64,000 bases of DNA from Cliona cf. orientalis (Eukaryota; Porifera; Demospongiae; Clionaida; Clionaidae), in the NCBI GenBank assembly GCA_963930775.1, contig OZ005696.1, positions 6,510,001 through 6,574,000 of the forward strand, read 5' to 3'. The notes beneath the pieces were generated by a model. The model ran no database searches and was not told the origin of the DNA. It saw only the letters and a program-made list of their open reading frames with translations. Shown in pieces: positions 9,636 through 51,885 of this stretch (the first letter of the stretch is position 1; each line of letters opens with the position of its first letter). The position numbers and the translations under genes are program-made.

Positions 9636-9783
9636 AGTGTAGTATTATAATATTATATACAAATAGCTAGTGTATTGTCTTGTGTGAGTGCAGGTATGAG
9701 TGTAGCTAGCCAAGCGTACAAATCAAATCGGCTGTGGAGAACAAGTGTGTGTGTATGTATTAATTGTGCAGCAATCCTATTCT

Positions 9784-10400
9784 TTACTGATATTCATGAA
9801 GGATGCAGCTATGTAGTTGCCTCTTTGGCTTCTTGGAGGGAGAATGAAAAATTAAAGGTGATGATGCTTCAACTGCCTCTACAGCAGCTGCCTTACTCCC
9901 CTCACCACTCTGCTGCTCTCCATCACCCCCTTCTTTTGAGCCCTGGACCTCCACTGCACTGTCTCGTTGAGAAGGCTTGGCAGCTGCGGGCATATCACCA
10001 ACTCTTTCATCGCCCGATTCGCGAGTAGTTTGTCCAATCAGATCATCAGATTCACTACACTCTAGCTTGGGGTCTACTGCTGTACGTAGCTTCACTAGCT
10101 GCTGGGTGCATGTCTTCCTCTGGGATTGACTTTGAAGGGACAATTTGAGCTCCTCCCACTATCTCTCCGACAATGACAATGCTATTTGGGTCAGTTTCCA
10201 ACACTTGCAGCTACTGGTCCATGATCTCACCAGCTTCCTCCTGCTGAGAAACCTGGCAGAGGTAGTATCGATAGTTGTCGTTCTTTCCTTTATACTAGTC
10301 AGAAGGGCTGCCTGTGTGATGGGGTCTATGTCTCCAGTCATCGCTGAAGTACCACTCCTGCTCCCCCCAGTCACACCAATATCATCAACAGCATACTTGA
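9784..10400 (-). other. Undeciphered coding-like region
   Basis: Minus-strand frames here have coding-like composition but no single intact frame. One frame gives a Ser/Glu/Gly-rich acidic stretch (QRKTCTQQLVKL ... SGEGSKAAAVEAVEAS). Another frame over 10090-10300 gives NDNYRYYLCQVSQQEEAGEI, then one in-frame TAG, then VLETDPNSIVIVGEIVGGAQ. I do not recognise either. It may be a pseudogene, or exons whose splice sites I cannot place. Confidence 0.3.
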
Positions 10401-10832
10401 CATTGTATACTCACTTTTAATAGATGCATGCATACATGCACACACACGTACATAAACATAATATGCATACACACATACTCAATTTAAGTGTGATAGCTCT
10501 TACCTGGAGAGGCACAAACTGAGGACTGGTAAATCTGACGAGTAGGGCGAACTGGAGGGGAAGGCCTGGTACCAGGGGGCCCTGGAAAGTGAGTGGGTCA
10601 GAATAGCTGAGTGTGTCAAAGGAGCACATCAGTTTTGATTACGTGAACGTGGCTAAACTAGAGGAATTTGTGGGAATGTTTGGAAATGTTCCTAACAGCC
10701 TCAAAAGGCGTGAAGATGGAAGGAAAAACAGACCCGTAGCCTAGTGATTAATATTAATTTTGTAGAAGATGAGGAATTAATGAAAGGGAGTCTGAGACGG
10801 AAAGAGCTAGAGAGAAGAAAGAGAGAGAGGTT

Positions 10833-10848
10833 GGGGGGGGGGGGGGGA
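10833..10848. repeat. Poly-G tract
   Basis: An uninterrupted run of about 16 G follows an AGAGAGAGAGG purine stretch. No gene was assigned to 10400-11600. That interval holds (CA)n-like sequence near 10435-10480 and otherwise nothing I recognise. Confidence 0.8.
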
Positions 10849-11621
10849 GAATTTTATAATTCACCACTTATAGGTCATCATCCTCAAGAGACTCTCCAGC
10901 CAGCAGGTCAGTCAGGTTTGACTGGTATGACCAGTTCTGTGGGACAGTTGGTGACACTGAAACACTGCTAAATCACATGCCAAATCAACTGAAGAGAACA
11001 GCCTTCATGTCTAACCTACTGGATAAGGAAGCTCCAGTAATTATGACTATTAATTTTTATGAGTTATGAATGATGCTAGTGACTAGTTGTTTTCTGCTAC
11101 AGGGATGGTTTGTGAACAGAGAGTAGTAGTAGTTTTACTATGATATGATGGACTTCATCGATACAGAGTCTGATCTGTAACTAATGTTAAAAATATTAAT
11201 GATGACCATACCAGGTCCTACGTATTGATCTGATCACTATGCAAATGATGTCAGTTGATATGTAGCTAATTTTCTGGGACTGTACTGGTGTATAGGACTC
11301 ATTTCTGGAGGACCGGTACCATGCCATGAAAATTATCACTCGTTGGCATTGAACTTGCTACAGTTAATGCTACATGAAAATTCAGTAGCTAGGACTCTAT
11401 CTTCTACCACCAATCTCAAGCCCATGGGGAAACACTGATAATATTGCCTGCTCAGGCACTAATACCACTAATAGGGCCACCTTTAGTACATTGTACTATA
11501 ATATACATGTAGGTTGCATGCATGACTGTGTACTCCTTTCCTCCCCCAGCCCTGGTATCTTACAGGTCACGCCACCATTCTAGACATGCTCACAACCAAC
11601 TCTGGCTATAGACAGAGATAG

Positions 11622-12275: not shown

Positions 12276-12400
12276 CGACCCTCGACTGGTGCAGATCAAG
12301 CGGCTTGGAATGTGGATGGAGAGATTCTTTGATGGGTCTCTCCAATGCTATAGGGTCAAGGAGTGGCCTGACTGGAACACTAGTATTAATTTTTCTCAAA
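12247..12400 (+). CDS. Conserved C-terminal tail of same gene
   Basis: In the frame +2 relative to the preceding exon, this encodes DPRLVQIKRLGMWMERFFDG followed by SLQCYRVKEWPDW, a strongly coding-like and probably conserved tail. The preceding frame stops at 12275, so either an intron joins the frames (acceptor candidate CTGCTTCCAG ending 12251) or there is a frameshift. Downstream of about 12400 the frame runs into hydrophobic AT-rich sequence that I would not call coding. Confidence 0.4.
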
Positions 12401-12793: not shown

Positions 12794-12799
12794 TTTATT
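12794..12799 (-). terminator. Polyadenylation signal candidate
   Basis: AATAAA reads on the minus strand about 90 bp after the stop of the Roc/Death gene at 12888. The position fits a 3' end signal. Confidence 0.45.
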
Positions 12800-15300: not shown

Positions 15301-15319
15301 AAAGCAGCACGACACTTAT

Positions 15320-17413: not shown

Positions 17414-17699
17414 CTTGCACTGGTTCAGCATAGCTTCTGATATTATCTGCAAGCTGGGTCTCATTTGCCTTGTATAGAGACCAGATTACTTCCCTCCACG
17501 ACGGCTGTTTGCAGTGACCTTTGCTACTGAGAAAGTGTTCAATCACATCCTTAAGGCAAGCCTCATCAGAGACATGCCGTCGCTGTATGTCATCCAGGTT
17601 AGATCGCAAAGAGGAATATAGCTATATGTTCACCCAGTGTACGCCAGCTCCGTACATTCTTTATAACATTAAATATGTTGTCTAATGTGAGAGGTGGAG
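17414..17699 (-). pseudogene. Death-domain exon 2 of gene 2, frameshifted
   Basis: Paralogue of 8632-8916 with the same splice sites (CCTCTCCAG acceptor, CAAG|GTAGATG donor). It begins LTLDNIFNVIKNVRSWRTLG, then loses frame at 17621-17624, where four bases GCTA are inserted relative to gene 1. The rest continues in another frame: DDIQRRHVSDEACLKDVIEH, PSWREVIWSLYKANETQLA. The net length is 286 bp, one base more than gene 1. Either this allele is broken, the exon is skipped (its phase-1 neighbours would still join), or the assembly has an error. Confidence 0.65.
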
Positions 17700-21800: not shown

Positions 21801-24800
21801 TACAAAGATGCCTACAATTAAGGGTGAAATTCTACTTACAATTCCAGCTTCTGTTTTCTTGGTGTTGTCATCAGGAGTAGGGTACCTTCTCAAAGATATT
21901 GCTCTTTCCAGAAATCTCTGTAATTGTTCAGTATCACAATCCACCATATCATTTCCCTCAGACTGTTTCCACCATTCACGAGGGTACCAATCGTACGCCA
22001 TCCATACATATCTAGGATAAGTAAGTCCCCTCTTGGCGGCCTGTAACCAAATTTAAGGTCGAAATAGTCTTATTATAAGACATCAGATTCTATGCACTAA
22101 GCTCTCCCTCATTGCATTTATAATATAATAGTTCTTTCAGGCAAGATGCTGAAAGAACACGTAATATTATAGAGGGGGAGATCTGGCACACTAAACTAGT
22201 GGAATGTGCTAATTAATACATACCTCGCAAATAATTTTCTTAGCAGGTTCTGAGTAACAATTTAGAATGAATATACGATAATCATCATTCTCCAGCTGCA
22301 TTGATAATTATTATTATTATGGCTATCATAGTAAATTGTGTACAATAATTATTATTATGCTTACAAATAAGTCGACAGTTTCAAGTGGATCATCCTGAGT
22401 CTTGAACAGACGGCTCATGACAGTGATATTTGCTGGCTCTAGCTCCCTTCGAAAATTCCCTTCTGCCTAATCATGCATGCATGTAATGATGGCATATAAT
22501 CTGGAATCATGCTGTGCATTAATTTTTAGCTGAACACAATAATTGACTGATTCTGATTGCATGCATGTATACTGACAGTAAATTAAATCTCATGCAATTG
22601 ATATGCACAGATCATTAATTATTATTATTATTGCAGAGTTACTCTGAGGAGAGGGAGAGAGAGAGAGAGCTAGAGAGAGACAGTGAGAGAGAGAGAAAGA
22701 GAGAGATGGGAGAGGAAGGAAAGGACCCGACACGAGCCAACAACTTCATGTCTAGTCAAGGATCTTACCCCTGTAAATATTGACTCATCCTGAGTTAAAA
22801 GCGCTATCCTTTTCCAATTAAAATGCTCCATAGTTGCGCGAAGACCTGGAGATACAATTGCAAATGTTGGACTGTTTCGAAAGTATCTGAGAAATCTCGA
22901 TCGGTCGCTGAGTGCTGCCAATCCAGATGAATAGGATATCTATAAGCGTGAAAGTAGCAAACAATAATTTTATTACCATGCATGATATGTGAAACAATTC
23001 AAGTGGAGGATCATTATTCATAATAGTGTGAGGTTCTGCCCCCCTGCATAAAAATAGGAGCCTGAGAGGCTAGGGCAGCAATAGCTGCCACACAATTCAA
23101 GTAAAAGCTTCTCCATGACTTTCTATGATATCATGCAGAAACCATTTAAGAGGTGCATTGCATTGCCCACACAAGTTGCCTTGATACCATCATTATAGCT
23201 ACACCTCGTTGACTTGTAAGCCACATGGGAGCTGTTGCTTGTCTCCTGCATGCAGTGGAGCTGGCCTCATGTTTAATGGGTAACTTAAAGTTATGTAGTC
23301 CTTGTACTAACAGTTAAGTAACTATCATATCTGACTATATGGCACCAATTAACTGTGATATTATGCATTGCCATCCTCACACTTGTTTATTTGAGTACAG
23401 TTTTGATAGTAATGGATGTTTATATAAGCGTTCTTCCATTAATACATATAACGATGTTATGTTGTTGTCCCCCTCTACATACTTGTTGTAGGAGTAAGTT
23501 ATTATTATGTGCGTTCCATGCAAACAGCTGTATATACGTATAAAATAGGCGTTCTACACTCGAGTAAATTAAGTTTGTTCTAAGTGTCCCCTTCCAAAAA
23601 GTATTATGATTTTCCATATATCTATAAGTATGCATGTATCAGTCCGCCAATGATTGTTGCATTGTAGTGTAGCATTTCACTCAAAAAATACAGTGTCACG
23701 TCAATGTTTAAATTAATTTTAGCAGATCACCTGAGAGATGTTCCATCGATGACTGATTTCTGCAACGGGTTCAGTGGCAACTGAACAGCCACAGCCAACC
23801 AGAGCTAGTTTCACAGGTTGAGACTGGATGCCATTGAAGAATTGATCCAACGATTCACTTCGAAGACACTGCAAGGACACAGTATATTCAATGATGTTAG
23901 TATTTGCTGCCAGTATTATCAGTAAACATGCTGTAAGCATCCTAGAAGATTAAGTAAGCCACTGGTACTATGATACACATACTCCCAGGAAACACCTAGA
24001 CAAAATAAAGATAATGTAACTGAATGCCATCTATGATGATGCAAGCTGATAATATAATTATGGTGGCCTTGAAGGTCAGCCCTCAGGGTCAAGTCTCATG
24101 CATACATGTTCTCAGTCCCCAGGGTCAAGTCTCAATAGAAGGTTTTAGCCACGGTCCTCAGGGTGATTATATATTGTGACTGTGATGGCAGTCACCACTG
24201 GAGGATCTTGAGTAGGGACAGGCACAGGCTGGCATTATTTTGGGCATAATAGGTGGTTTTGTTAATTAATGCAGGTAATGCATGCATGGGGTGTCGCTTG
24301 TGTCATTATTGGCAAGAAAAGTTTGGGGATTTACGAAAGTACTGCATGATGGACATTTATGTAAATCACAGTGGAAATTTGACATGAATCATTTAGAGAT
24401 GCTACAACTGTGGGGATTTATGAATTTCAAGTAGTGGATATATACATATAAATTTAATCTCATTGGTAGATATTGTATAAACTGCAGCAAGACTATAATT
24501 AAATTTTTATACAGTTTATGATACTGTGTAAACAGGTGCTGATCCAGAAATTAAATTTTGCATGGAAGGTGGCTGATGGGGTGACTATCCATAGTAAACT
24601 ATACTGGTGCAAGGGGGTGGCTGGTTAACAATGGTGGACATCTCCTATACTACGTTGCATAAAGAACTAGAGTAGGGGGGTGGTTATATAGCCACCCTAT
24701 CCACCCCCCTGGTAAATATCTGCTGCAATTTGCACAATGTCTACCAGTGAGATTTACGTACATATCAACTACTTTCAAAAATCCCCACAGTTGTAGCATC

Positions 24801-26195
24801 TCTAAAATTAATGTCTTCTGTGATTCACATCAATTTCCACTGTGATTTACAAAAATGTCCACTACTTTCGTAAATACCCTAAATTCCTTTGCCAATAATG
24901 AATTTTGACATAAATGGTATAGCTACCCCATATATGCCATCATTATGTTGGAACGACAAAACCACCTATTAGCTATGCCCAAAGCAATGCCAGCATATTG
25001 TTCCTGTCCCTACTGTGTCAAGCCCCTCCAGTGGTGACTGCCATGTACAGCATTCACACCGTTGTACATCAACAACAGTAGGACAAAGGTCACCATGCGA
25101 TGATGATGACCATTACCAGCGATTCAATAGACTATGTCTCACTAGCCACACTCTTGCAAATAAACAACCCTGGAGATGATGTCTCTACAAGAGCCATAAA
25201 TGCTCCATGAACTTTATAATACTATAGGTTCTTTGGATAATGATCATAATATTATCTAATGGGTGGGGTGTCTACCACTGTATGTATACATTACCAAATA
25301 CGCAGATAAGGTAAAAGACCTAGACCTACTTATGAGGCTATGACGTATATATACATACATCAAAGCACCGTAATCACCTATATATAGCTATAGCCCGTAG
25401 TATAATTATTATACTATATTATAGTTGGAGAAATATATACCATGACATTATATATATTGCTCTGTGGTGATCATGAGGGCAATGTTGTGATATTTCATGG
25501 TCATACATTCACACAAACATTAATTATAGTTACTGCATCACCGCACATAATGTTATAGCTACACTGATGGCCCTTGTGCTAGAGAAGACTGCACCATGAT
25601 CAGATTGATGACTGTAATGCAGTTAAGTGTAACATAATACTTATAGGAGACCAAATTTCTTGCATGTAAGTAGTGAAGTGTTGTTTGTCAACAGGTCATT
25701 CCGGTAGCTACTTGTCAGGAATAGATTATGAATATCTTGCTCCAATTAATCTTCACAATCGACCATCTTTAATGAAAATTCAGTATGCTTATCTTCAAAC
25801 CTCATTCCATTGCCTGCTCAAGCACACCTAATCCATCAAAAGGCAGAGCCATAATTTTAAGCACCTATAGCCGCAATCAAGGCTAAAACAACCGTCATAA
25901 TAATTATCATTGTCTATAGCTGCATCAATCCTGTATTATTATTACAGAGTATAGTTTGCTGTCGTACCATTGAATCTCTAACTTTATCATATATCAGGTT
26001 GTATCCTGTCAGTATATCAGGATCACTGTTGATGTCTTCCAGTGCCATGTCAGCTGCTGGTAAGGCTCCTGAAGAATTGTAGCCATATTGTCCATAGGAT
26101 ATGATCAGCATGAATGTCAAGTTGTGAGGCTGAGAAACAGCTGAATCCCACATCATAAAGAGCACGCAGCCAACCAGCAGCCGTGCTATGATCAT
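18691..26195 (-). CDS. GABA-B-like class C receptor, 15 exons
   Basis: A spliced minus-strand gene decoded from GT-AG sites. Exons: 26195-25968, 23868-23731, 22939-22769, 22466-22365, 22295-22224, 22040-21840, 21635-21360, 21279-21207, 21144-21043, 20975-20831, 20390-20264, 20165-20064, 19920-19777, 19709-19380, 18897-18691. The product is about 806 residues with no frame breaks. Order: signal peptide (1-20); bilobed Venus-flytrap ligand-binding domain (about 22-440, with LALVGCGCSV, NISQISYSSG, PTFAIVSPGLRATMEHFNWK); TM1 (exon 10), TM2 (exon 11), TM3 (exon 12), TM4 (exon 13), TM5-7 (exon 14, with FQTRKVKLQGLNDSKYI); and a C-terminal coiled coil. No cysteine-rich domain precedes TM1, which distinguishes GABA-B from mGlu receptors. 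Family role: plasma-membrane G-protein-coupled receptor, usually an obligate dimer. The natural ligand is not predictable here. A final small exon may be missing. Confidence 0.85.
19380..19709 (-). CDS. Receptor exon 14: TM5 to TM7
   Basis: A 330 bp exon, acceptor GTTTTTATAG and donor CTAAG|GTACTG. It encodes the end of extracellular loop 2 (with a cysteine, VCYEAS), TM5, the family-typical intracellular loop 3 motif FQTRKVKLQGLNDSK, TM6, TM7 and the closing FVPK. The open frame continues to a stop at 19311, but joining at FVPK to exon 15 restores the normal family order. Confidence 0.8.
22626..22712. repeat. GA-rich microsatellite in receptor intron
   Basis: An imperfect (GA)n purine tract on the plus strand, broken by GAGCTAGAG and GACAGTGAG, lies between receptor exons 3 and 4. 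Confidence 0.85.
24187..25044. repeat. 860 bp fold-back in receptor intron 1
   Basis: The ends GGCAGTCACCACTGGAGG and CCTCCAGTGGTGACTGCC are inverted copies. Inverted similarity continues inward through AGTAGGGACAGG / CCTGTCCCTACT, ATAGGTGGTTTTG / CAAAACCACCTAT and GATGCTACAACTGTGGGG / CCCCACAGTTGTAGCATC. No transposase was seen. The rest of 23870-25967 is AT-rich, with nothing else recognised. Confidence 0.8.
25968..26195 (-). CDS. Receptor exon 1: signal peptide and lobe 1 start
   Basis: ATG at 26195 opens a hydrophobic leader (MIIARLLVGCVLFMM ... AVSQ). The first strand of a periplasmic-binding-protein fold follows (LTFMLIISYGQYGYNSSG, ALPAADMALEDINSD), which is typical of GABA-B and receptor-cyclase ligand domains. 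The donor is AATG|GTACGA. Intron 1 is over 2 kb and holds a fold-back. Confidence 0.8.
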
Positions 26196-26707: not shown

Positions 26708-27617
26708 TTACAGTAGCTAGGTGAAGCTAGGTGACAAATGACCAGATCCACACTGCCCAAACTCGGAGGTCAAAGTGCAATCATAAACAATGGGGGGAAG
26801 CTTGTAGCTAACTAGCTAGCTACAAGTTCAAAAAAAAGAACCCACATACTCGCATATTATCCATGCTGTCACCTGTGGCACTCAATACAAGGGCCACTGC
26901 CATTGAATTTTGGGCCTGATGATCATGAGTGGCTAGAGCATCTAGCTAGTTAGCACTGCAGTATGCTGAGAGCACATCATTCCTATACTATTAGTGGACT
27001 AGAATCAATTAGCTAATGTGTATAGCTACATGGATAACTATTGCACTTATGTAGTACCGTAGGTCTATTAGTTATACAGCATCATGCAGGTAATATGCAA
27101 TTATATATAATTATTATCAGAAACCATAACAATTATCTTGTCTAAACACCAGACTTGAGTACTAAACTGTGAAAGGTATCGTACCGCCTTATACATCTGC
27201 AAAGTCCACAGACAGACAGTGGATTTATGGAAACAAGCAAATTATACTATAAACATCATGAATTGTGAATTTTTCAATATAATAAGAGAGAGGAGAGTAT
27301 AGCTATCACATTTGTAGCAAATCCCTCTGAAAAAATTATTTTAATAATAATTATGCTCAACACGTAGCTACTGGACAACACGGAGGAGTGTGTGTCCCAA
27401 CACACATGGTTTCCCAACTATCCCAACCTAAGGCAAGTACACCTACCATGTACCATTTGGAGTACTCACACCTAACCAATTCTGCTATCATTATCACTGT
27501 AGGTGATTTCCCAACCAAAACTAAAACTGATTGTTTCATAAATATTTATAGATAAGAGCATGTACACAAGTCTAGCAGCTAACTTAAAACTATAGTATAG
27601 CTATCAATATCAATGCC
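26708..27617. other. Intergenic region
   Basis: Lies between the receptor's 5' end and the first membrane-family gene. AT-rich, with several TAGCTA/AGCTAGC runs and short AATAATTATT palindromes. No gene recognised. Confidence 0.5.
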
Positions 27618-29480
27618 ATGGCTATGACCTATTCAGTGTTAGGCACCAAGAAACTGGGTTTGATTTTGCTAAATGCATTATGGGTAACAAGAGCTTTGGT
27701 CATCTATGTTGACCCTGAGAATGGAACTGAAGATCACAGGTGTTGGACTGGAGGGATCTCCCTGCCATGTAAGGACTATGAACTGGCCAAAGAAGGTGCT
27801 CTGTATCTAAATATATCCACATATGACATTATCGATGCATCTTTTGAACTGAATTCGAATCAAACTTGTCAACCAAAAAACCTGCAAAATACTCTACAAA
27901 ATCTTCTATGTAAAAAACACAGGCACAAACTTTATAACGGTGGAACTGTGAAGTGTGACAAAAATGTGATTTCTGTCCGAAATTGTGACTGTGTGACATA
28001 TAACAATGATGAGTGTAGTGTCCTACTAGGAGCATGCCCATATGGGTGTGGATTTACAACAAGTAAGTTAAGTAGTTGGGCAGCACAAATTTTTCATCCT
28101 TTGCCAGAAAACTTAAGTGAATACAATTATGCAGTGTGTGGATGGCTCAACCGTGATGGTCCAATGTGTAGCAAGTGTAGAAAAGATTTCAGCCCCCAGG
28201 TGTACTCGTATGATCTGAAGTGTGTACCTTGTAAAAATAGTCAATACAATTGGTTGAAGTTCACAGCTGTAGCTTTCGTTCCACTCACCTTCTTTTATTT
28301 CATTGTAATTCTGTTTAGAATCGATGCCACCAGTCCATATCTCTATGGATTCATTAATTTAAACCAAGCCTTGGCTTCACCCATAAATTTACGAGGAATC
28401 TTTCTAACCCTTAAAAGGGATTATTTACTTGGAGCAAGGATACTGGCAATCCCTTACACTATATGGAACCTCGACTTTTTTCGATCCCTCCCACTGAATA
28501 TTTGTCTTGATCTAACAACACTTCAGACATTAGCAATGGAATATGCCATAGCCATTTACCCACTCCTACTGGTCGTAATCACTTATATAGTGATAGAGCT
28601 TCATGCCAGAGGCTGTCGAGTGTTAGTTTGGTTGTGGAGACCATTTCACAGATGCTGTGTACGATTCACTAGAGCTATGGATATCCAATCATCCATTGTC
28701 AAGGCCTTCGCTACTTTTCTGCTCCTCTCGTATGTGAAGCTACTCAATACAACATTGGATATCCTTTTACCAGTCCAACTTTATCATATTAGTCCAAATG
28801 AAGATGGTTCTGGTTGGTATGTCTACTATGATGCCTCATACCACTATTTCAGCTATAATCATCTGCCATATTCCATAATGAGTATCACCCTCTTCCTTAT
28901 CTTCGGCCTTTCTCCATTAATTCTCCTCATTGTCTACCCAATGAGCTGCTTTCAAAAATGTTGCTGTGGAGCCAATAATTATGCACTACGTACGTTTGTT
29001 GATGCATTCCAAGGTCACTACAAGGATGGCACTGAACCTGGAACTCGTGACTGCCGCTGGTTTGCTGGAATCTACTTTCTTGGTCGAATTATGATACTGT
29101 ATGTAATCTTTGGAGTTGTAAAGAATGCTGTATGCTATGCTCTTGTAGGATTCACTTTTATGGTCGTTGGAATGCTGATTATAATTCTACAACCATTTAA
29201 ATCATCCAAGGTCAACACCTATCACACGCTACTACTATTTTTCATGGCAGTTTGTTGCTTTTCTATCACAACGGTTAATCAAGCAGAAAGCAAAGCTCAC
29301 TGGATGATCAAGTTCCTGACACCTCTAGTTTGGATTATCTACATGTCACCCATACTGGCCATGATGGCCTATGCTATATGCAAGTCCTATTGCAGGTGTC
29401 GAGTACTCTGGTTGAAAGTTCATCAAAGAAATCCAGAGCTGGAGAATTTATTGATTGTGAACGGAAATAGTGAAAAGTAA
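27618..29480 (+). CDS. Cys-rich multi-pass membrane protein A
   Basis: An intact single-exon frame of 620 residues. A hydrophobic leader (about 12-28, LGLILLNALWVTRALVIYV) precedes an extracellular part (about 30-205) with CWTGGISLPCKDYELAKEG, a conserved block CDCVTYNNDECSVLLGACP then YGCGF, and GPMCSKCRKDFSP..CVPC just before the first membrane span. About seven to eight hydrophobic spans follow. Conserved loops include FFRSLPLNICLDLTTLQTL, MDIQSSIVKAFATFLLLSYV and FVDAFQGHYKDGTEPGTRD. The tail is short and basic. Paralogues are at 30342-32177, 45866-47677 and 51886-60740. I do not know the function; the layout (Cys-rich ectodomain plus constant multi-pass core) suggests a surface receptor or channel-like protein. 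The start is ATG at 27618. Confidence 0.8.
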   Translation: MAMTYSVLGTKKLGLILLNALWVTRALVIYVDPENGTEDHRCWTGGISLPCKDYELAKEGALYLNISTYDIIDASFELNSNQTCQPKNLQNTLQNLLCKKHRHKLYNGGTVKCDKNVISVRNCDCVTYNNDECSVLLGACPYGCGFTTSKLSSWAAQIFHPLPENLSEYNYAVCGWLNRDGPMCSKCRKDFSPQVYSYDLKCVPCKNSQYNWLKFTAVAFVPLTFFYFIVILFRIDATSPYLYGFINLNQALASPINLRGIFLTLKRDYLLGARILAIPYTIWNLDFFRSLPLNICLDLTTLQTLAMEYAIAIYPLLLVVITYIVIELHARGCRVLVWLWRPFHRCCVRFTRAMDIQSSIVKAFATFLLLSYVKLLNTTLDILLPVQLYHISPNEDGSGWYVYYDASYHYFSYNHLPYSIMSITLFLIFGLSPLILLIVYPMSCFQKCCCGANNYALRTFVDAFQGHYKDGTEPGTRDCRWFAGIYFLGRIMILYVIFGVVKNAVCYALVGFTFMVVGMLIIILQPFKSSKVNTYHTLLLFFMAVCCFSITTVNQAESKAHWMIKFLTPLVWIIYMSPILAMMAYAICKSYCRCRVLWLKVHQRNPELENLLIVNGNSEK

Positions 29481-32177: not shown

Positions 32178-32339
32178 TGATTCTTGATGACAGCTGTACT
32201 GAAACTCCAGAGATCTTGCTGCAGTCTACAGGTAGCTACAGTCTGTAATGACTCTGCTCTACAGGATATTTTCACATGTGATCAACAGAACTAATAAATT
32301 CTTACGCCTACGGCATAAATAACGTTATTGTTTACCGAA

Positions 32340-33705: not shown

Positions 33706-34559
33706 ATAATAAATATGATATAAGCCATGAAAGGCACTCCCACTAATGGTATAACTCAGCCACAAATCAAACAAATATTTAACCAATGATGCTTATGAAA
33801 GTGTTAACATTAGTGTTTTAAGTTGTAATGAAACAAATTTTATTTTCTCTCCTATTATCTACACTCTTCACTGGCCTTCCTACAGCTCAGCGGGCCATGG
33901 CCTTGATGGGGTACCTCCTCTGGGTATATTGCTTCAACTGCCAATGTGGTGCCATTGAGTGTAAATGTACCGTAAGCACTCTCATCCGTGTCTAGCTACA
34001 CGTAGCTAATTCAGTAGCTAACTTTATGTCAACCATTTCCCTACAGTACGAATTAAGCGCATAGCTAATAAAAGTATTGTAGAACAATTAAGAAGTATAA
34101 TAATATTATTATAATGAAACTTATAATTCATTGCACTGCATCTTCAATTGGGAGCCCACAAACCTTTGACCACGCCCCCTATATCATCACTGGGTGCACT
34201 ATATCAGGATCATGATGGCAAAGTGCACAGTGGGTGGAGTTTTGAATAATGATAATCATTCTTGCATATGTCAGGGTTATTTTTAGCAAAAATGGAATGT
34301 GCACCTTCAGTTGCCATGGGAACACAGTAGGTGTGGCCCTACGGTATTGGAGTCCTGTGGGCTCAATTTATATATATCAGCTAGAGGAACTTATGAACTC
34401 AGAAAAATAAATCATTACTTAACAATTATTGCAAGTATTTAATATGGTAACCCTATAGGTAATAAGTTCATTCATATCTCGATTCAAACATTCACCATAA
34501 ATTTTGGCGTTTGTGCAAGCTAATACAATAGTTTTATCACCTGCTTCTATAGCTATAGA

Positions 34560-37789: not shown

Positions 37790-39060
37790 TGGCAGTACTT
37801 TTACTAACAACAGTGCTGGTGTCATGTACATGCATAATTCATCATTTAATGTTACCAACAGTAATTTTACTAACAGTAGTGCAGCTGACGATGGTGGTGT
37901 CATGATCACATCTGCTTCGTCATTTAGTATCACGAGCAGTACTTTTACTAACAGCAGTGCACCTTATCGTGGTGGTGTCATGTTCACATCTGATTCTTTA
38001 TTTAATATTACCAACAGTACTTTTACTAACAACAGTGCAGGTAACGATGGTGTCATGATCATATTTGATTCGTCATTTAATACTACCAGCAGTACTTTTA
38101 CTAACAACAGTGCAGCAAATCATGGTGGTGTCATGTACACACATAATTCGTCATTTAATGTTACCAATAGTACTTTTACTAACAACAGTGCAGCTGACGA
38201 TGGTGGTGTCATGGAAACATCTAATTTGTCATTTAATATTATATTACCAACAGTACTTTTACTAACAGCAGTGCAGCTGACGTTGGTGGTGTCATGTACA
38301 CACGTAATTCATCATTTAATGTTATCAGCAGTACTTTTACTAACAGCAGTGCAGCTGGTAGTGGTGGTGTCATGATCACATTTGATTCGTCGTTTAATGT
38401 TACCCACAGTACTTTTACTAACAGCAGTGCAGCTGACGATGGTGGTGTCATGATCACATCGGCTTCATCATTTAGTATCACCAGCAGTACGTTTACTAAC
38501 AGCAGTGCACCTTATCGTGGTGGTGTCATGTCCACATATAATTCATTATTTAATATTACCAGCAGTAACTTTGCCAACAACACTGCAGCTGTTGGCGGTG
38601 TCATGGAAATATCTAATTCGACATTTAATGTTACCAACAGTACTTTTACTAACAACAGAGCATCTAACATTGGTGGTGTCATGGAAACATCTAATTCGTC
38701 ATTTAATGTTACCAATAGTAGCTACTTTTATTAACAACAGTGCAGCTAACTTTGGTGGTGTCATGATCACATTTGATTCATCATTTAATATTACCAGCAG
38801 TACTTTTACTAACAGTGCAGCTAACATTAATGGTGTCATGTACACACGTTACTCATCATTTAATGTTACCAATAGTACTTTTACTAATAACAGTGCAGCT
38901 GGCAATGGTGGTGTCATGATCACATCCGATTCATCAATTAATATTACCAGCAGTACTTTTACAAACAGCAGTGCAGCTTATCGTGGTGGTGTCATGTACA
39001 CAGTGCATTCGTTTGTTAATATTACCTGCAGTATTTTCACTAACAACAGTGCAGGTGATA
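37790..39060 (+). repeat. 78 bp coding repeat array (beta-helix rungs)
   Basis: About 16 tandem units of 78 bp, each encoding one 26-residue rung with core ACTTTTACTAACAACAGTGC (TFTNNSA) and GGTGGTGTCATG (GGVM). Some units are shorter by whole codons. Two units carry frame-changing insertions, 5 bp near 38236 and 4 bp at 38721-38724, which together restore the original frame modulo three. Confidence 0.9.
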
Positions 39061-40639
39061 TTGGCGGTGTTGCATATGCAACTCATGCTTCGTCGTTTAA
39101 CATTATTGAAAGTAATTTTTATGCTAACAGATATGGAGGAATAATGATAACTGTAGAAAGCTCAACATATATTACTAATGGTACATTTGATTATAATTCA
39201 GGATGTTTCTATATTATCTGTTGCAACCTGACTTTCAGTGGCTACACAAGATTAGAGAACTGTGCAAAACGGTCGAATGAAATAGCAGATGCAAGAGAAG
39301 AAGGAGGGGCAATTACTAGTTTCTTGTCAACCATGATCTTCACTGGAGTAAGTAATTTATCAAACAATCAAGCAAGGAGTGGTGGAGCAATATCAGCCAC
39401 CGAGAGTAAAATCATGACGTATGGTGAACTAATAATAGCCAACAACACAGCCACAGTCAGCAGTGGAGGTGGTATTTCTCTACATCAAATCTTGAAGTCA
39501 GGGGAAACTGTATCATCTCTGGTAACTATGCTATGACGAGGGGTGGAGGAATCCATGCCACTAGTTCAACTGTTGCTGTATATCAATTAGGGACTCTTCA
39601 ATTCATCAACAATGAAGCAAAACATGGAAGTGGGCTTTATCTAGAATTTAATGCAAAATTGTATGTGCAAAAACCTACATCGGAAATTGTAAGTTTTGAA
39701 CGTCTACTAATACTATTTCAAGCTAACCATGTCAACTATGGAGGAGCCATATATGTGGCAGACAATACCAACGCTGGTGCATGCTCACCTGATAATGAAT
39801 GCTTTATCCAAACACTTGGACTTTATCCAAATTCTATAGCATCTACAAACATATTCTTCTCTGGAAACACTGCAAGTGAGCAAGGAGCCAATATCTTTGG
39901 AGGACTACTGGATAGATGCATCCCAAGTCCATTTGCTGAAGTTTCGTGGCAACTAGAGACACTACCATCATACTATAATGGTGTCGGTTACATTAATGAC
40001 ATCACCAACATAACAGCATTAGATACATACAGCATATCCTCTCTGCCTGTTCGAATTTGTTTTTGTAAGGGTGAGAGTGAGCCCGATTGTGGCTATCTGC
40101 CACCAACCATCAAAGTCAAGAAAGGAGAAACTTTCACTGTGCCACTTGTTGCAGTGGATCAGGTCAATCATTCTGTAGATGCAAACATCATCAGTTCTCT
40201 ATCTTTTCAAGATGGTGGTTTTAGTGAAGGACAGCAAACTCAGAGTGTAGGGAGAAACTGTAGCAATGTAACATTCAACGTGTTCTCTCCTCATAACTTG
40301 GAAATAATTAAACTCTTTGCTGATGGTCCCTGTGGAAGTTCCCCACTTTTCACACGACAACTTTATATCCAGTTCACTGACTGCACTTGCCCAGTTGGTT
40401 TTGAGCTCGGTTTTGAGTCTTTAAAAACCGCTACAAGGTGCCAATGCTTTTGTGATGCACGATTGTCTCCCCACATCATTAGCTGTGATCCAATAACTGA
40501 ATCTCTTGTGAGAGTGAACACTAATTCATGGATCACTCACATCAATGACACTGACCCACCTGGCTACGTCATTCATCCTAATTGCCCTTTTGACTACTGC
40601 CGACCTCCAACTGAAAATATCAGCATGAATCTCAACCTT

Positions 40640-43099: not shown

Positions 43100-45200
43100 G
43101 GCTATATTATTCAGAATTGTTGATAGCTTGATAGTATACGATAGTATTTCTATTTCCTTCACCAAGTTCTGCAGCTCGAGATTTCATTTCCTCCAAACTT
43201 TGCGATACCTTCTGCAGCATTAAATTTTATATACGGCATAAAGTATTACAGCCAATATTATACAAGCATTGCTTTCTGCTTAATAAATTAATATAATAGT
43301 AAAGCAGCCAGTTGCCATAATAAATGGTAGTAATGTGTGATACGTATTGACTCTTGTTGATTTAAAGAGTATGATCAGCATTCCAATAGCCATGAAAGTG
43401 AGCCCAACAAAAGTGTAGAATATACCATAACTTACAACTCTAAAGATAACATTATGCACTCAGTAGCAATTTACTTTTTTGCGGTTATTAGGTAATTATG
43501 CGTTAATTATGATGAAACCTATGGTGTAATCTCTTAGGTAATCTATGAGATAATTATGAGAAAATTCAGGGCCCCGGACTTGAAATTCAGTGAAATATAT
43601 AGAGTATCTTGCGCGTGTATCCAGCGAATACCTTTACAAGCAGCGTGTTGCCTTCTCTGACAAGCAGCAGAGACACTCAGATTCCCGATGATCCGAGGCT
43701 AGTCTGCGACTGAGGCGCCGGCATCGTACTGTACAGTGAAGTGAACCCACTATATTGACGACCTTTACCACATACACCATTTCAACTATGCAGCTACTGA
43801 GTGCATGGTCAAGTTTTCATACAATATCATAATTCAACCAGATTCCAGCAAACCTGCAGCAGTCACGAGTTCCAGGTTCAGTGCCATCTTTGTAGTGACC
43901 TTGGAATGCATCACATCAATAATCAATTGTTTGCTCCAAAACAATATCTTTGAAAGCAGCTCATTGGATAGACAATGCATGAGGAGAATTAACGGACAAA
44001 AAAGGCCAAACACAAGGAAGAAGGTGACACTCATTATGGCATATGGCAGATGATTATAGTGGTATGATCGAGGCATCATAGTAGACATACCAATTATTAT
44101 CAGTGTATCCTGGTATCTTTGGATTAATGTGATAGAGTTTGACTGGAAGAAGGATGTCTAATGTTGCATTGAGTAGCTTCACGTATGAAAGAAGTAGAAA
44201 TGTGGCAAAGAACTTGATGATGGATGACTGAATATCCATAGCTCTAGTGATCATGAATCGTACACAGCATCTGTGAAATGGCCTCCACTACCAAATTAGC
44301 ATGCACTCGATACCATCTGGAATGAAGCTCTATCACTATGTAGGTGATTATGACCAGTAGGAGTGGGTAAATGGCTATGGCATAGTCCAGTGCTAATATC
44401 TGAAGTGTTGTTAAATCAAGGCAAATGTTTAGTGGGAGCAAGCGAAAAAATCAAGATTCTATTATGGTGTAAGGGATTGTAGCTCTGCTCCAAGAACATA
44501 CTATTAGTGCCTTTTAAAGGTTAGAAGGAGTCCTCGCTTGGTTTAGCCTGGGTGATATAGCCATAGAGATACAGACTAGTGGAGTCAATTCAGAACAGAA
44601 TTAAACAAAAGAAGGTGAGCATGCATGAAGAATGAATGCTACAGTTGTAAATTATATTATTGTACTTACTATCTTTGCAAGCTAAATGCTTTAGCTCAAA
44701 ATAATAATATGAGTAGACAAGTGGGCTGAAACCTTTTCTATATACACTTGCTACACATTGGACCATCTCGGTTGTATTCAGTATAATATTTTTTGGCATT
44801 ATTGATGATAAATTTGCCGGCTCCAATGCAACTAGCATAATATTACATGTATATCGTATCAGTTATAAATCCACACCCATATTATGGACAGTCTCCAATT
44901 AGAACACTGCACTTGTCATTACTGTATGTCATACAGTTACAGGTTTGTATAGAAACTCTATTTATCACAAAATAGCTTGTCATGATTATATTCATGAAGT
45001 ACACACAGTATCTTATATTAGTTGGACAATGTTCTGCTTTGATATATATAGAGCACCATTTTTGGCCGGTTTATAGTCCTTGCATGGCAGGGAGATCCCT
45101 CCAGTCCAACACCTGTGATCTTCAGTTCCATTCTCAGGGTCAATATAGATGACCAAAGCTCTTGTTATTGTACATAACGAATTCTAATCACTGTGCACAG
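43100..45200 (-). pseudogene. Decayed membrane-family gene (minus strand)
   Basis: Aligns along its length with gene B: start region near 45180 (CWTGGISLPCKDYK-like), YGCGF block near 44880, MCSKC-like block near 44750, NICLDLTTLQILALDYAIAI near 44400, MDIQSSIIKFFATFLLLSYV near 44200, C-terminus near 43170. Numerous stops and small insertions, and a fold-back repeat inserted at 43454-43804. It is head-to-head with the intact gene at 45866. Confidence 0.8.
43454..43804. repeat. Inverted-repeat element inserted in pseudogene
   Basis: The ends TGCACTCAGTAG and CTACTGAGTGCA are inverted copies. The element separates two parts of the pseudogene that are contiguous in gene B (AAAGATAACAT and ACAATATCATAATTC). 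A longer inverted relative is at 3415-3995. Confidence 0.75.
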
Positions 45201-45720
45201 ATAAGTCATGTTGATCAGTTGATGCTACTTACTCATAATAGTCTTATAATATACCTTATAACATTATGACATTGTTATGAAACTTCATATTAAACTTATT
45301 ATAATTAAGCATGCTGATGGTAGCTACTTACACATTCAAGCCATTTAAGTTAAAAATAAACATGACAGTTCTTCACGGCCGATAGCATCAACAACTAGCA
45401 AAAACACAGAATCGGGGCTTATAGATGATCAAAGCTCTTGTTATTGTACGCATGCGCAATGAATTCTAATCACACTGATAAGTCCTGTTGATCAGTTGAT
45501 GCTACTTACTCATAATAGTCTTATATACCTTATATGACATTGTTATGAAACTTCATATTAAATGTTACAAGCATGCTGATGGTAGCTAACTTACACAAGC
45601 CATTCAAGTTAAAATAAACATGACAGTATCATCAGGGCCGATAGCATCAATAACTAGCAAAAACATGAATCTCTAAGTCATTCAGTTTCCTGACTGCAAG
45701 TCAGCTTGAAATTAAGAGGA
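45183..45720. repeat. Tandem-duplicated 5' flank
   Basis: The block starting GAATTCTAATCAC near 45179 and again near 45459 is repeated with about 280 bp period. A third copy is at 51497-51720, upstream of gene D. It is likely the promoter-side spacer of the plus-strand genes. Copies differ mostly by short AT-rich or GCTA insertions. Confidence 0.7.
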
Positions 45721-45865
45721 GGAACAAGCCAGACTGAATCGTATGTATAACTAGTACCTACATAATATTGAGTACAATTAGTTGTGGTACATGTATGTTG
45801 GCTAGCCTTGTCCCCGTGGACCCAATCTTTTGCAATTCAGTAGAAGAACTTTTGTGGCTAAAAAC

Positions 45866-47677
45866 ATGCAGGTAATAGTCTACTTAGTGCTAGCTTCAAT
45901 AGTTTATACCAAAGATGAAAATATAACTAAAAATCCAAATCCTGAACATCAGATTAGTAACATCAATGGACTACACAAAGGAAAGGAATTGGCCAAGCAA
46001 GTTGTTCTAGAATCTGATGCATTCACGGGCGAGCATGTCAAGATAAAGTCACCCCAAGGTTGTCAGCAAGACCTGGTCCAGCTAGATGCTTTGCAAAAGA
46101 GGATGTGTAAACATACACATCTATCTGGATTTGGTAACAGAGGAGCAATAATATGTCTGGACAATGTAACTTATGTGCTAGACTGCAATTGTGTGACATA
46201 CGATAGTGATAAATGCAATGTTCTACTAGGAGTATGCCCATATGGGTGTGGATTTACAATAAGCAAGTCGAGTTTGAGGGAGCCATTTTTTCATCATTTA
46301 CCAGAAAACTTAAGCGAATACAATTATGCGATATGTGGATGGCTCAACCGTGATGGTCCAATGTGTAGCAAGTGTAGAAAAGATTTCAGCCCCCAGGTGT
46401 ACTCATATGATCTGAAGTGTGTACCTTGTAAAAATAATCGATACAATTGGTTGAAGTTCACAGCTGTAGCTTTTATTCCACTCACCTTCTTTTACTTCAT
46501 TGTAATTCTGTTTAGAATCGATGCCACTAGTCCGTATCTCTATGGCTTCATTAATCTAAACCAAGCCCTGGCTTCACCCATAAGTTTACGAGGACTCATT
46601 TTAACCCTTAAAAGGGATTATTTACTTGGAGCAAGGATACTGGCAATCCCTTACGCCATATGGAACCTTGACTTTTTTCGATCCCTCCCACTGAATATTT
46701 GTCTTGACCTAACAACACTTCAAACATTAGCACTGGACTATGCCATAGCCATTTACCCACTCCTGCTAGTTGTAATCACCTATATAGTGATAGAGCTTCA
46801 TGCCAGAGGCTGTCGAGTGTTAGTTTGGTTGTCGAGGCCATTTCACAGATGCTGTGTACGATTCACTAGAGCTATGGATATCCAATCATCCATTGTCAAG
46901 TCCTTCGCTACTTTTCTGCTCCTCTCGTATGTGAAGCTACTCAATACAACATTGGATATTTTGATGCCCGTTCAACTTTATCAGGTTAGTCCAAACGAAG
47001 ATGGTTCTGGTTGGTATGTCTACTATGATGCCTCATACCACTATTTCAGCTATAATCATCTGCCATATGCCATAATGAGTGTCACCCTCTTCCTTATCTT
47101 CGGCCTTTGTCCATTAATTCTCCTCATTGTTTACCCAATGAGCTGCTTTCAAAGATATTGCTATGGAGCCAATAATTATGCACTACGTACATTTGTTGAT
47201 GCATTCCAAGGTCACTACAAGGATGGCACTGAACCTGGAACTCGTGACTGCCGCTGGTTTGCTGGAATCTACTTTCTTGGTCGAATTATGATATTGTATG
47301 TAATCTTCGGAGTTGTAAAGAATGCCGTATGCTATGCTCTTGTAGGATTCACTTTTATGAGCATTGGAATGCTGATTGTAATTCTACAACCATTTAAATC
47401 ATCCAAGGTCAACAACTATCATACGCTACTATTATTTTTCATTGCAATTTGTTGCTTTTCCACCACAACGATTGATCAAGCAGAAAGCAAAGCTCACTGG
47501 ATGATTAGGTTCCTGAAACCTTTAGTTGGGATTATCTACCTGTCACCCATACTGGCCATGATGGCCTATGCTATATGCAAATGCTATTGCAGGTGTCGAG
47601 TACTTTGGTTGAAAGTTCATCAAAGAAATCCAGAGCTGGAGAATTTATTGATTGTGAACAGAAATAGTGAAAATTAG
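45866..47677 (+). CDS. Cys-rich multi-pass membrane protein C
   Basis: An intact single-exon gene, 603 residues from ATG at 45866. The open frame extends upstream, but only from a TTG. It has a signal peptide (MQVIVYLVLASIVYT), a distinct N-terminal part (SNINGLHKGKELAKQVVLES) unlike genes A and B, then CVTYDSDKCNVLLGVCPYGC, GPMCSKCRKDFSPQVYSYDL and the same multi-pass core as gene A, almost identical over its last 430 residues. The difference between a variable N-terminus and a constant core suggests domain exchange or gene conversion between paralogues. It is head-to-head with the pseudogene at 43100-45200. Confidence 0.8.
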   Translation: MQVIVYLVLASIVYTKDENITKNPNPEHQISNINGLHKGKELAKQVVLESDAFTGEHVKIKSPQGCQQDLVQLDALQKRMCKHTHLSGFGNRGAIICLDNVTYVLDCNCVTYDSDKCNVLLGVCPYGCGFTISKSSLREPFFHHLPENLSEYNYAICGWLNRDGPMCSKCRKDFSPQVYSYDLKCVPCKNNRYNWLKFTAVAFIPLTFFYFIVILFRIDATSPYLYGFINLNQALASPISLRGLILTLKRDYLLGARILAIPYAIWNLDFFRSLPLNICLDLTTLQTLALDYAIAIYPLLLVVITYIVIELHARGCRVLVWLSRPFHRCCVRFTRAMDIQSSIVKSFATFLLLSYVKLLNTTLDILMPVQLYQVSPNEDGSGWYVYYDASYHYFSYNHLPYAIMSVTLFLIFGLCPLILLIVYPMSCFQRYCYGANNYALRTFVDAFQGHYKDGTEPGTRDCRWFAGIYFLGRIMILYVIFGVVKNAVCYALVGFTFMSIGMLIVILQPFKSSKVNNYHTLLLFFIAICCFSTTTIDQAESKAHWMIRFLKPLVGIIYLSPILAMMAYAICKCYCRCRVLWLKVHQRNPELENLLIVNRNSEN

Positions 47678-48059: not shown

Positions 48060-49502
48060 ACAGTAGGATTGTGCTTATTATGCATGTGGCTATTCAGAAT
48101 CTTTATTGATAGCTTGTCAATGATAGCATTTCCTATTTCTATTGTAGATCAGCAAACATCAAGTTTTACGACATCTTCTGCAGAATTTATATGTGGCATA
48201 AAGTATATATTACAGCCAGTACAGCTAGGGGACACATAAAAAATTCCAACCAGTGGTACCACTTTCTTGATCATCCAACGAGCATTGTTTTCTGCTTTAA
48301 CAATTATAATAGTATTATAACCATAAAGCAAACAGTTGACGTGATAAATGGTAATAATGTGTGATACGTATTGACTATTAATAATTGTTGATTTAAATGG
48401 CTGTAAGAGTATGATCAGCATTCCAATAGCCATGAAAGAGAATCCAACAAAAGTGTATAGAATATACCATACTTTACTGCTCCAAAGATAACATAGACTC
48501 AAGGATCATATAATTCGACCTAAGAAGTATATAGATTCCAGCAAACCAGTGGCAGTCACGAGTTCCAGGTTCAGTGCCATCCTTGTAGTTACCTTGGAAT
48601 GCATCAACAAGCGTACGTAGTGCATAATTGTTTGCTCTAATATATCTTTGAAAGCAGAGCATTGGGTAGACTATGAGAAGAGTTATTGGACAAAGGCTGA
48701 ATACAAAAAAAAGTAAACTGCTGTTTAGAGCATACAGTAGGTGATCTTTGCTAAAGTAGTGATATGAGGCGTCATAGTAGACAAACCAACTGTCAGTATG
48801 TCCAGGTATCTTTGAATTAATGTGATAGAGTTTGACTGGGAGAAGGATGTCTAATGTTGCATTGAGTACACTCGACAGCCTCTGACATGAAGCTCTATCA
48901 CTATGTAGGTGATTATGCATATGACCAGTAGGAGTGGGTAAATGGCTATGGCATAGTCCTGTGCTAACATCTGAAGTGTTGTTAAATCAATTAAGGTAAA
49001 TATTCAGTGGGACCTAGGGAGCGAAAAAAGTCAAGGTGTAAGGGATTGCGAGTATGTATATATATATAGCCTTGCTCCAAGACTTAGTAGGTAGTATCCT
49101 TCAAGGGTCAGAAAGAGTCCTTGTAAACTTATGCCACCTGGCTTCAGCTCAAAGGTTTTCACCTCACCCTGCACCTCATAATTTTATTTCAACAGACTTC
49201 CTCGTCTCTGGAATTCATTACCTCCTATTGATCTGAACTTATCTTTCGCAACAATCAGAAAGCAACTAATAGACATTTTTTGGAAATCCTTTCTCGCCAA
49301 ATTTAATTCTGACAATACTTGCACCTATTACTTCGCATGTCCTTGCTCGAGGTGTTTCTCCCAGCCAAAGTTCTTCCTTCATCTGATGTATACTATATAC
49401 ACAACTTAGTCTAACAATCACCAAACTAATTTTTTATTATATTCTGTACATGTCAGGCTGTTACAACCCCGTAACAGACCCTCAGCTATGGAAGCTGTAA
49501 AG

Positions 49503-49534
<32 letters not shown>

Positions 49535-50230
49535 TAATAATGCTTTGCAAAGTATAACACAAGGCCCAAACTCTCCAAATTATTCTCCCTATGTGTGTGT
49601 TTGTGAACCAGTTATCACTTAGGTGGATTACTGTATGATAACTTATTCTCACAAGAGTGCTGCAGAAGTCTGGATCAATAGACTCCAAATCCGTGAAGCC
49701 AGGGCTGGCTACACATTGGACCATTTCGATTCAGCCATACACAAATTTTAAGATTGTATTCACTATAATATCATTAATTTTTATGGCATTTGATGACAAA
49801 TTTGCTGGCTCCAACTAGCATAGTAATATTATATCGTATCAGTTACACTAATATGGATACTGCACTCTTCAATATTGTACGTCATAATTATAGTTACAGT
49901 TTCATATAGAAACTTTACAAATAACTTGTCATGATTATATATTCATGAAGTAACACGGTATCTTCCTGATAGGTTTGATTTGAAGATGATATTGTTTGGA
50001 CAATGTTCTGCTTGATACTATTCAGATATATAGCTAAGAGCACCTTCGTTGGCCAGTTCATAGTCCTTGCATGGCAGGGAGATCCCTCCAGTCCAACACC
50101 TGTGATCTTCAATTTCATTCCCAGGGTCAACATAGATGACCAAAACTCTTATTATTGTACACAATGAATTTAGCAGAATCACACTGATAATAAATTATAA
50201 AATATTAACGTTGTAGAGATCGATCATCAT
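48060..50230 (-). pseudogene. Decayed membrane-family gene with LINE insertion
   Basis: Minus-strand relative of gene B: N-terminal block near 50080, CxxC region near 49710, core near 48900-48500 (SFVYYDASYHYF-like, GNYKDGTEPGTRDCHWFAGI), C-terminus near 48180. Multiple stops. About 220 bp corresponding to 31426-31650 is missing and replaced by a LINE fragment and unknown DNA (49134-49705). It is head-to-head with gene D. Confidence 0.8.
49134..49540 (+). mobile_element. 5'-truncated non-LTR retrotransposon 3' end
   Basis: A plus-strand frame at 49194-49409 encodes LPRLWNSLPPIDLNLSFATI, then LIDIFWKSFLAKF and a C-terminal CTYYFACPCSRC, the typical end of LINE reverse-transcriptase ORFs. After the stop the element ends in a (TAA)n tail (49507-49540), the 3' tail type seen in several LINE clades. 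A frameshift separates an upstream piece (49150-49190). Confidence 0.75.
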
Positions 50231-50894
50231 TGTTGATTCTCAATGATCATGACAGCTGTACTGAAATTCTAATTGACTAAGAGATCTTGCTGCAGTATGC
50301 AGCTACGTAGATCAAGTACCCATGCATGTGTATAGTACAGGATCAGCAGAACTATTTATTTTATGCCTAACGAATAGTTTCACTGTTCAACAAACTAGGT
50401 TGCTAGGTTAGAACGGTTGTTGCTATATGATGTAGACTATGGTGCGCGTGACTTTTAGCCAATCAGGTGGGATGATAGTTATAGCACGGTTGCCAGGGAT
50501 TTATGGCGACGTAAACCGCCCTCGGACTCGGGTTGGTTTACTGCCATAAATCCCTGGCCCCGTGCTATAACTATAACATGTATACCGAGCAATGATCTTT
50601 TATGGCAGAAACGAACCTAAAAAAAACAATTAATTTTGATTACAATTGAGCTGAAAATTAGTCAATTAAGCAAGCAATCATGTATATACTTTCACCATCA
50701 AAAGCACGACAGCTGCTAGCCATAGATCATGCATATTAATTCCATGGTGTGTACATTTGTATTGACCTTTGGGGTGCTGCATGGCTTAGCTTTGGGGCTA
50801 CTGGACGAATGCCTTGGTACTAATAATATAGGAAATCTCAACAGCCTCGGAGTTTACAATGGGGTGACTGGCCTATAATAATAATAATAATGAA

Positions 50895-51225
50895 ATTGGT
50901 GGCAGAGAAACTGGGGGGGGGGGGGGGGGGGGGGGGGGGGGAGGCAAGGGGAGGCTGAGACCCCTCAGATTTCCAAATGTCTATAGTTTTATTATATTTT
51001 TAGTCTACGCTATAAATGGCATCACAGGCCACTAGCTAACATTGGTTAGATACTCAGTAGATGAGATATAATACTAATTGGGTCCAAAACAATTTAGAAA
51101 TGTTTTCAGAGAGTCTAAATTTCTAAAGTTTCGAGTCTGGGAGAGCACGCCCAAGACCTCCCCTAGTAGGTGGCCATGGGCTAAAGCCTATATGGCATAC
51201 ATGCAATGGTCATCGCTCTTGAATC
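50895..51225. repeat. G-rich insertion in duplicated spacer
   Basis: Absent from the matching spacer at 32340-32880. Starts near a run of 29 G (50913-50941) and ends near GGTCATCGCTC. Probably an inserted repeat; its class is unknown. Confidence 0.55.
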
Positions 51226-51885
51226 TTTAAGGGTATAATTCATGGTTTGAATGTAAGGATGCATGCATATTAGCTACGGGCTTATTGATTTTTTAAGGTG
51301 TTTGAATTATTTGGTACCACTGGGCCAGTCATAAAACGTGTTGACATAAGGGCTTTGAAAATAGCTATCACTGTGCTTGTCACACCAGAGGTCTTTAATA
51401 TCATCGGACCAGTTGAATTTTTAAGTCATGAAGAATGCTGTATGCTATACACTAGTTGGGTAACAGCTTGCATAATAATAATATTACTATAGTCCTGTTG
51501 ATCAGTTGTTGCTACTTACTTATAACAGTCCTATACCTTGTGACATTGTGTGTTTATGAAACTGCATATATAAACATGCCGATGGTAACGAATTTACACA
51601 AGCCATTTAAGTTAAAAAGAAACTTTGTGACATGACAATCATGATACCGTCAGGGCCAATAGCATCAACAACTAGCAAAAACACAGAATCTCTAAGTAAA
51701 TCAGCTTGAAGAGGAGAAGCAGCAGACAGAATTGTATGTATAGCTATAATAATTATTATAGTACTTACATAAAGTTGTGGTAAATAAATGTAGAATGTAC
51801 ACATATATATTTGGCTAGCCTCGTCCCTGGGAATTGGATCTTTGCAATTCAGTATAAGAATCAAAGAATTTTTGTGGCTAAAAAC

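Follow-up and report, generated by a model that had tools for sequence, protein, structure and literature searches.

A recurrent, genome-wide class of palindromic four-base insertions at pyrimidine-purine steps in the sponge Cliona cf. orientalis

The stretch analyzed here, called the window throughout, comprises 64,000 nt of the 217-Mb genome of the sponge Cliona cf. orientalis, which is assembled in 149 contigs (the window is contig OZ005696.1, positions 6,510,001 to 6,574,000), and our subject is a four-base insertion that recurs in it. The original prediction was that an extra GCTA repeatedly turns TA into TAGCTA. We found that this insertion class is real, recurrent and genome-wide, and that it is broader than first noted. 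Its rule is YR to YR-nn-YR, where YR is a pyrimidine-purine step that is duplicated around a two-base filler and the four bases gained make up a self-complementary tetramer. In well-studied genomes slippage duplications account for most short insertions. Among the repeats examined here, by contrast, the most frequent small insertion is a mostly non-tandem palindrome at YR steps, which suggests a route of repair or replication that elsewhere is quiet or has escaped notice.

The direction of the change was determined from five families of dispersed repeats in this genome (129 copies, 64.7 kb), in which insertions and deletions (indels) were called against the family majority and were considered rare when present in at most two copies or one fifth of the family. 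To be counted, an indel needed ten flanking columns and at least 7/8 matching bases on each side, and the counts of microhomology, YR steps and inverted repeats also excluded rows adjoining GACG arrays or runs of five G or C. Rare insertions of 1 to 6 bp numbered 26, 18, 14, 40, 11 and 11, with the mode at 4 bp, while rare deletions of the same sizes numbered 31, 6, 6, 4, 2 and 3 and did not have their mode there. Self-complementary tetramers made up 31 of the 40 rare 4-bp insertions (a count that retains the event AATTAA in L084) and none of the four rare 4-bp deletions. Because the 4-bp insertions are mostly palindromic and the 4-bp deletions are not, the class is an insertion process, and the opposite polarity, TAGCTA reduced to TA by deletion, was rejected. 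Eleven of the palindromic insertions belong to the TAGC class, so the predicted class of GCTA insertions at TA is present among the polarised events, and the idea of a repeated mutational process is borne out both by this polarity and by recurrence at different sites in the families. The nine non-palindromic insertions include AACG, GACA and GACG within a GACG array, one G run and one tandem CACT, together with ATAG, ATTG, TATT and TTAT, the first two of which form, by eye, an inverted repeat with the flank. With microsatellite rows removed, the palindromic share at four gap penalties was 28/35, 29/34, 29/34 and 27/32 for 4-bp insertions and 1/4, 0/5, 0/3 and 0/4 for 4-bp deletions. When microhomology of at least 2 bp was required, 25-27 of 27-29 insertions were palindromic where about 6 were expected (p from 1e-15 to 4e-17, calculated from order-2 word frequencies with events taken as independent, some copies being close kin). 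Palindromic 4-bp insertions arise at about 3 per 100 rare substitution types (29 vs 923).

The anatomy is clearest in 18 unambiguous 4-bp insertions whose microhomology is exactly 2 bp; all but one are palindromic. All 18 duplicate a YR step (18/20 if two non-YR events taken out by the filters, AATTAA in L084 and AGCTAG in L076, are included), and since YR dinucleotides are about 0.256 of all dinucleotides the chance of this is near 2e-11 if the events are independent. The duplicated step was TA in 12 and CA or TG in 6, and the outcomes were TAGCTA (8), CATGCA (4), TAATTA (2), TGCATG (2), TATATA (1) and TATTTA (1). An alignment-free count of words gives the same pattern in a genome sample of 20 stretches of 10 kb, fetched from ten contigs and masked, plus the window. 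Strict YR-nn-YR hexamers with palindromic units numbered 1440 against 749 (ratio 1.92), whereas YR hexamers with non-palindromic units stood at 0.95 and palindromic units at RY and at RR/YY steps (R, purine; Y, pyrimidine) at 1.09 and 1.20. The hexamers of period four that rank near the top in the sampled stretches include self-complementary units (the TAGC, CATG, AATT and ACGT classes) as well as G runs and GA-type and GT-type repeats.

At TA the fillers GC, AT, CG and TA occurred at 3.28, 2.13, 2.02 and 1.40 times expectation, and the mixed filler GT/AC (TAGTTA, for example) at 1.16, or 1.31 in the unmasked strict count. Because mixed fillers are barely enriched, the two ends seem not to be extended independently of each other, and some pairing between them seems to be needed; a model of independent one-base additions at each end was rejected on the same rarity. 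We also rejected GCTA as a privileged sequence, as CATG, AATT, TATA and ATCG-class insertions share the pattern, and set aside the correction of longer quasi-palindromes, as the flanks show by eye no common wider palindrome. An apparent excess of CAGCCA, which may stem from AATACAGCC repeats at 53009-54073, fell outside the top list after masking.

The hexamer TAGCTA itself occurs 85 times in the window, where 100 dinucleotide-preserving shuffles gave a mean of 22.28 (standard deviation 4.49) and never reached 85. An order-4 Markov model expects 61.6, a modest excess that arises because the shorter words of the motif are over-represented as well. With tandem repeats masked, TAGCTA exceeded the locus-specific order-1 expectation in 21/21 regions, that is, in all 20 stretches and the window, with a total of 289 against 84.3 expected, so the excess over Markov expectation that the original prediction called for is present well beyond the window. 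The prediction had also described the word as very common in intergenic DNA, and this fits our count, in which 8/85 starts fall within open reading frame (ORF) intervals against 22.7 expected by length (17 of the 19 window ORFs were used; these are not proven genes, and the omitted ORF 6075-6554 contains one further TAGCTA).

We tentatively favor, at somewhat less than even confidence, the explanation that the insertions were left by end joining: breaks with 2-nt 5' overhangs would have been filled in and then sealed across a short self-complementary filler. The proposed process would be a frequent insertion mutation of fixed anatomy, L-YR-R to L-YR-nn-YR-R, acting mostly at TA, then at CA/TG and perhaps at CG. 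It would begin with a break at a flexible YR step that leaves a 5' overhang of 2 nt; filling in the recessed 3' ends would produce the 2-bp duplication, and a very short extension of the 3' ends would follow. At CA/TG ends the added bases would, like P nucleotides, be the reverse complement of that end, and at TA ends they would mostly be GC or AT. Joining would take place once the extensions on the two sides had paired, a requirement that would make the filler self-complementary and the 4-bp gain dominant. The events would take place in the germ line, because they are inherited. Between the two readings offered by the original prediction, transposon excision scars and templated repair that makes a palindrome, the latter is the better.

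As to what makes the breaks, a speculative candidate is SPO11, the enzyme known to produce 2-nt 5' overhangs in the germ line; a transposase or some other enzyme that cuts in a staggered way may be responsible instead. A TP6A_N exon and DNA polymerase X thumb exons were found in the genome. The 2-bp duplication is consistent with the overhang geometry of SPO11, described as 2-nt and 5' (PMC12918824), yet is not specific to it. In a structural model of the mouse enzyme the DNA is unwound over two base pairs at the dyad (PMC11922745), and such unwinding could favor YR steps. The most specific version of the proposal, which we consider doubtful, treats the palindromic tetramers as a durable archive of breaks in the germ line, each with a 2-nt 5' overhang, which SPO11 would probably have made and which were joined without homologous repair via self-complementary two-base fillers; each TAGCTA or CATGCA scar would then mark, base by base, a past break and its overhang, and this lineage would employ an end-joining polymerase or a hairpin opener with a fixed short product. 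If the scars are tied to meiotic breaks, past break positions could be read from the sequence.

Longer insertions would, under the joining proposal, carry fillers that are fold-back copies of the end. Examples of 5-8 bp are CT-AAG-CT(T), TG-CCA-TG(G) and AGA-TCT-AGA, and insertions in this size range have microhomology of at least 2 bp in 21/30 cases against about 5 expected (tandem duplications included). Among non-tandem insertions of 4 bp (n=29) and 5-8 bp (n=26), 0/500 random sets reached the observed mean inverted-repeat arm with the flank, while insertions of 9-14 bp (n=4) and deletions of 5-8 bp (n=13) did not stand out in this test; but the random inserts were not matched for microhomology, and rare deletions of 5-8 bp show microhomology too (6/13 against about 2.2 expected). 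Both points weigh against the joining proposal, as do several others. The two filtered non-YR events and the GA and AA indels in the window depart from the YR rule, and the masked word count shows enrichment of GCATGC and GTACGT and of the non-palindromic CCGCCC, CCTCCC and TCCTTC. At TA the P-nucleotide rule predicts TATATA, whereas the dominant outcome is TAGCTA, a preference for GC that the proposal does not account for. In mouse, SPO11 favors A at -1 and T at +1, not TA, and yeast Spo11 has little central preference (PMC11922745). Finally, the mechanism is read from sequence, and the breaks themselves are deduced from it. Apart from the insertions, the sequence is generally rich in perfect 8-bp palindromes (1.6 times the order-2 and 1.38 times the order-4 expectation), and the enriched palindromic octamers in the 200 kb of stretches plus the window include TAATATTA (107 against 11.9 at order 2) and CGCATGCG (21 against 1.1 at order 4).

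Several other processes can produce part of the pattern. A replicating strand that copies XY, switches to the complementary strand over two bases and returns would write XY, its reverse complement and XY again, and longer hops would give longer inverted insertions. Such template switching accounts for the outcomes CATGCA, TGCATG and TATATA, for the three-base versions AGA-TCT-AGA and CT-AAG-CTT and for the inverted repeats made by 5-8 bp insertions, and it has been reported together with palindrome extension in rad27 yeast (PMC5677150). It does not yield the most frequent outcomes, which are fillers of GC or AT at TA, and predicts neither YR steps nor a sharp peak at 4 bp, and we judge it unlikely though worth serious attention. 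Slippage, or the spread of tetranucleotide repeats with palindromic units, would agree with the frequency of palindromic-unit arrays of at least 10 bp (55/174 arrays in 6/33 unit classes); these arrays may be a consequence of the insertions, however, and 29/34 of the 4-bp insertions at the standard penalty had no adjoining full unit before the event, which leaves slippage very improbable. TOP2 has been linked to short duplications, and fill-in of 4-nt 5' overhangs of the topoisomerase II type would place the insertion mode at 4 bp, as observed. It would do so through tandem duplication of arbitrary tetramers, whereas the insertions are mostly non-tandem palindromes with 2 bp duplicated, and we give this explanation next to no weight.

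The remaining rival is that TAGCTA is the excision footprint of Tc1/mariner-type elements and their non-autonomous relatives, which duplicate TA. Very many DDE_3 (Tc1/mariner-type) genes are present genome-wide, L146 and L147 among them, many with long open frames; of 548 first-look candidates for DDE_3 transposase, the best 150 were scored and were over the cut-off, most with long open frames. The word TACATGTA, which we take to be a Tc1 footprint, occurs 50 times against 10.7 expected at order 2 (4.67-fold), at dispersed sites in the masked 200 kb of stretches plus the window. Tc1/mariner footprints are reported to be 2-4 bp long (PMC7913693). Since TACATGTA is enriched and DDE_3 genes are abundant, some TA scars may be footprints. 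On the other side, CA or TG is duplicated in 6/18 unambiguous events, and footprints explain neither these events nor the GC fillers. The left end of one pair of Tc1-like copies, interpreted as TA-CAGT, predicts TACATGTA and not TAGCTA, and TACATA/TATGTA, the short footprints expected from such an element, are not enriched (1.07). Except for GACG and G-run length changes, no element of at least 15 bp was found inside the aligned copies, which had been chosen by near-full-length matches. The suggestion of the original prediction that the scars come from TA-targeting transposons is thus weakly supported, the abundant genes and the enriched word speaking for it and the CA/TG events and the TA-CAGT end against it, and we hold it to be improbable as a general explanation. 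A possible insertion of TACATGTA at TA in L030 was dropped from consideration as adjoining bases differ too. Among other repeats, one short repeat (L012:2001-2357 and L119-L124) has terminal inverted repeats CATAGGCGGCGG...CCGCCGCCTATG and, by eye, apparent 5-bp target duplications.

Re-alignment of the five GCTA indels quoted in the original prediction, all on the + strand, upheld three of them as clean 4-bp indels of the TAGC class at TA: the extra GCTA at 17621-17624 (TAGCTA at 17619..17624, TA in the 8840 region), that at 34017-34020 (34015..34020, compared with the 29806 region) and that at 38721-38724 (38719..38724, compared with the neighboring unit of a tandem array). The array, at 37810-39070, has a 78-bp unit in about 16 copies and encodes NSSFNITNSTFTNNSA-like repeats, and the ORF downstream of it has a weak match to the Chlam_PMP repeat. 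The GCTA at 9705-9708 (9703..9708) is ambiguous, lying in a complex difference from the 18060 region with a net change of 3 bp and several one-base gaps in the best alignment, and that at 45585-45588 (45583..45588) is distinguished from the 51586 region by substitutions and shows no indel. The open frames around 38719..38724 overlap, and a gain or loss of 4 bp there shifts the frame. The process can thus shift reading frames (38721), and it would shape genome-wide word composition and could seed palindromic microsatellites.

A scan of paralogues in the window showed that 4-bp indels are frequent between paralogous pairs and that many are palindromic tetramers other than GCTA. On the + strand, TAGCTA appears as a 4-bp indel at 289..294 (against the 494-897 paralogue) and at 24970..24975 (against the inverted paralogue at 24185-24489), and CATG, of the TG/TGCATG type, at 43978..43981 (against several paralogues). 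Indels at non-YR steps are TCGA at 44068..44071 (GA/GATCGA type) and AATT at 48989..48992 (AA/AATTAA type), both against several paralogues, and TTAA at 50666..50669 (AA/AATTAA type). Pairwise comparison of the window and the sampled stretches, which is unpolarised and leaves out three tandem-array zones of the window, gave 59 distinct 4-bp indels against 51 of 3 bp and 22 of 5 bp; 23/52 non-tandem and 4/7 tandem 4-bp indels were palindromic in at least one equivalent placement. The window copies used for polarising indels, located by repeat-family search, lie at 3411..4003 (fam1), 432..918 (fam2) and 62674..63157 (fam4), all on the + strand; fam3 and fam4 are related and have one end in common.

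The window also holds three ORFs of one family, of about 620-630 amino acids, at 27588-29480, 30342-32225 and 45806-47677. The latter two had no Pfam match at E 0.001, and the first of these two (30342-32225) matched no PDB chain. A member of a multi-copy membrane-protein-like family seems interrupted at 52830-59893, as its resemblance to 27963-28601 ends at 52830 and is picked up again about 7 kb further on, at 59893. The segments 53549-53727 and 59716-59894, each of 179 bp, are 100% identical.

In titles and abstracts of the open-licence literature we did not find palindromic insertion described as a mutational class, a weak negative given that scope, and the known systems that come closest were compared through the parts of the reports available. 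Footprints of Tc1/mariner and Stowaway elements share the TA duplication with a few bases between, but these elements use TA only and leave fillers that are element ends (PMC7913693, PMC1925063), while here CA and TG are used too and the fillers are self-complementary. Indels at human meiotic hotspots resemble ours in insertion excess, microhomology and template switching; they differ in that the insertions mostly match the flank as duplications, and the excerpt describes no palindromic 4-bp class (PMC7615360). Template switching in rad27 yeast produces insertions that enlarge palindromes, and more insertions than deletions, but in a mutant strain, with 21 events among 455 changes, at longer repeats and, in the excerpt, with no 4-bp class (PMC5677150). 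Fold-back inverted insertions in yeast are likewise very short, templated and captured by end joining, with a median junction microhomology of 2 bp, and are suggested to be as short as 2 nt; their priming mostly relies on longer inverted microhomologies close to a single HO break, and neither a fixed 4-bp palindrome nor a YR rule appears in the part of the report available (PMC11724301). P nucleotides at V(D)J coding joints repeat the adjoining end as its reverse complement and, in human T-cell receptors, are mainly two in number; they differ in arising from RAG-made hairpin ends in lymphocytes and in having no 2-bp duplication (PMC3528771). The sponge insertions would be germ-line and are genome-wide, carry the 2-bp duplication and take GC or AT at TA. 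The likeness holds for CA to CATGCA and TG to TGCATG: among the 18 unambiguous events, the P-nucleotide rule fits CATGCA (4), TGCATG (2) and TATATA (1), and does not fit TAGCTA (8), TAATTA (2) and TATTTA (1). Although membership in a named class is not established, the sponge insertions work like the error-prone joining of staggered breaks.

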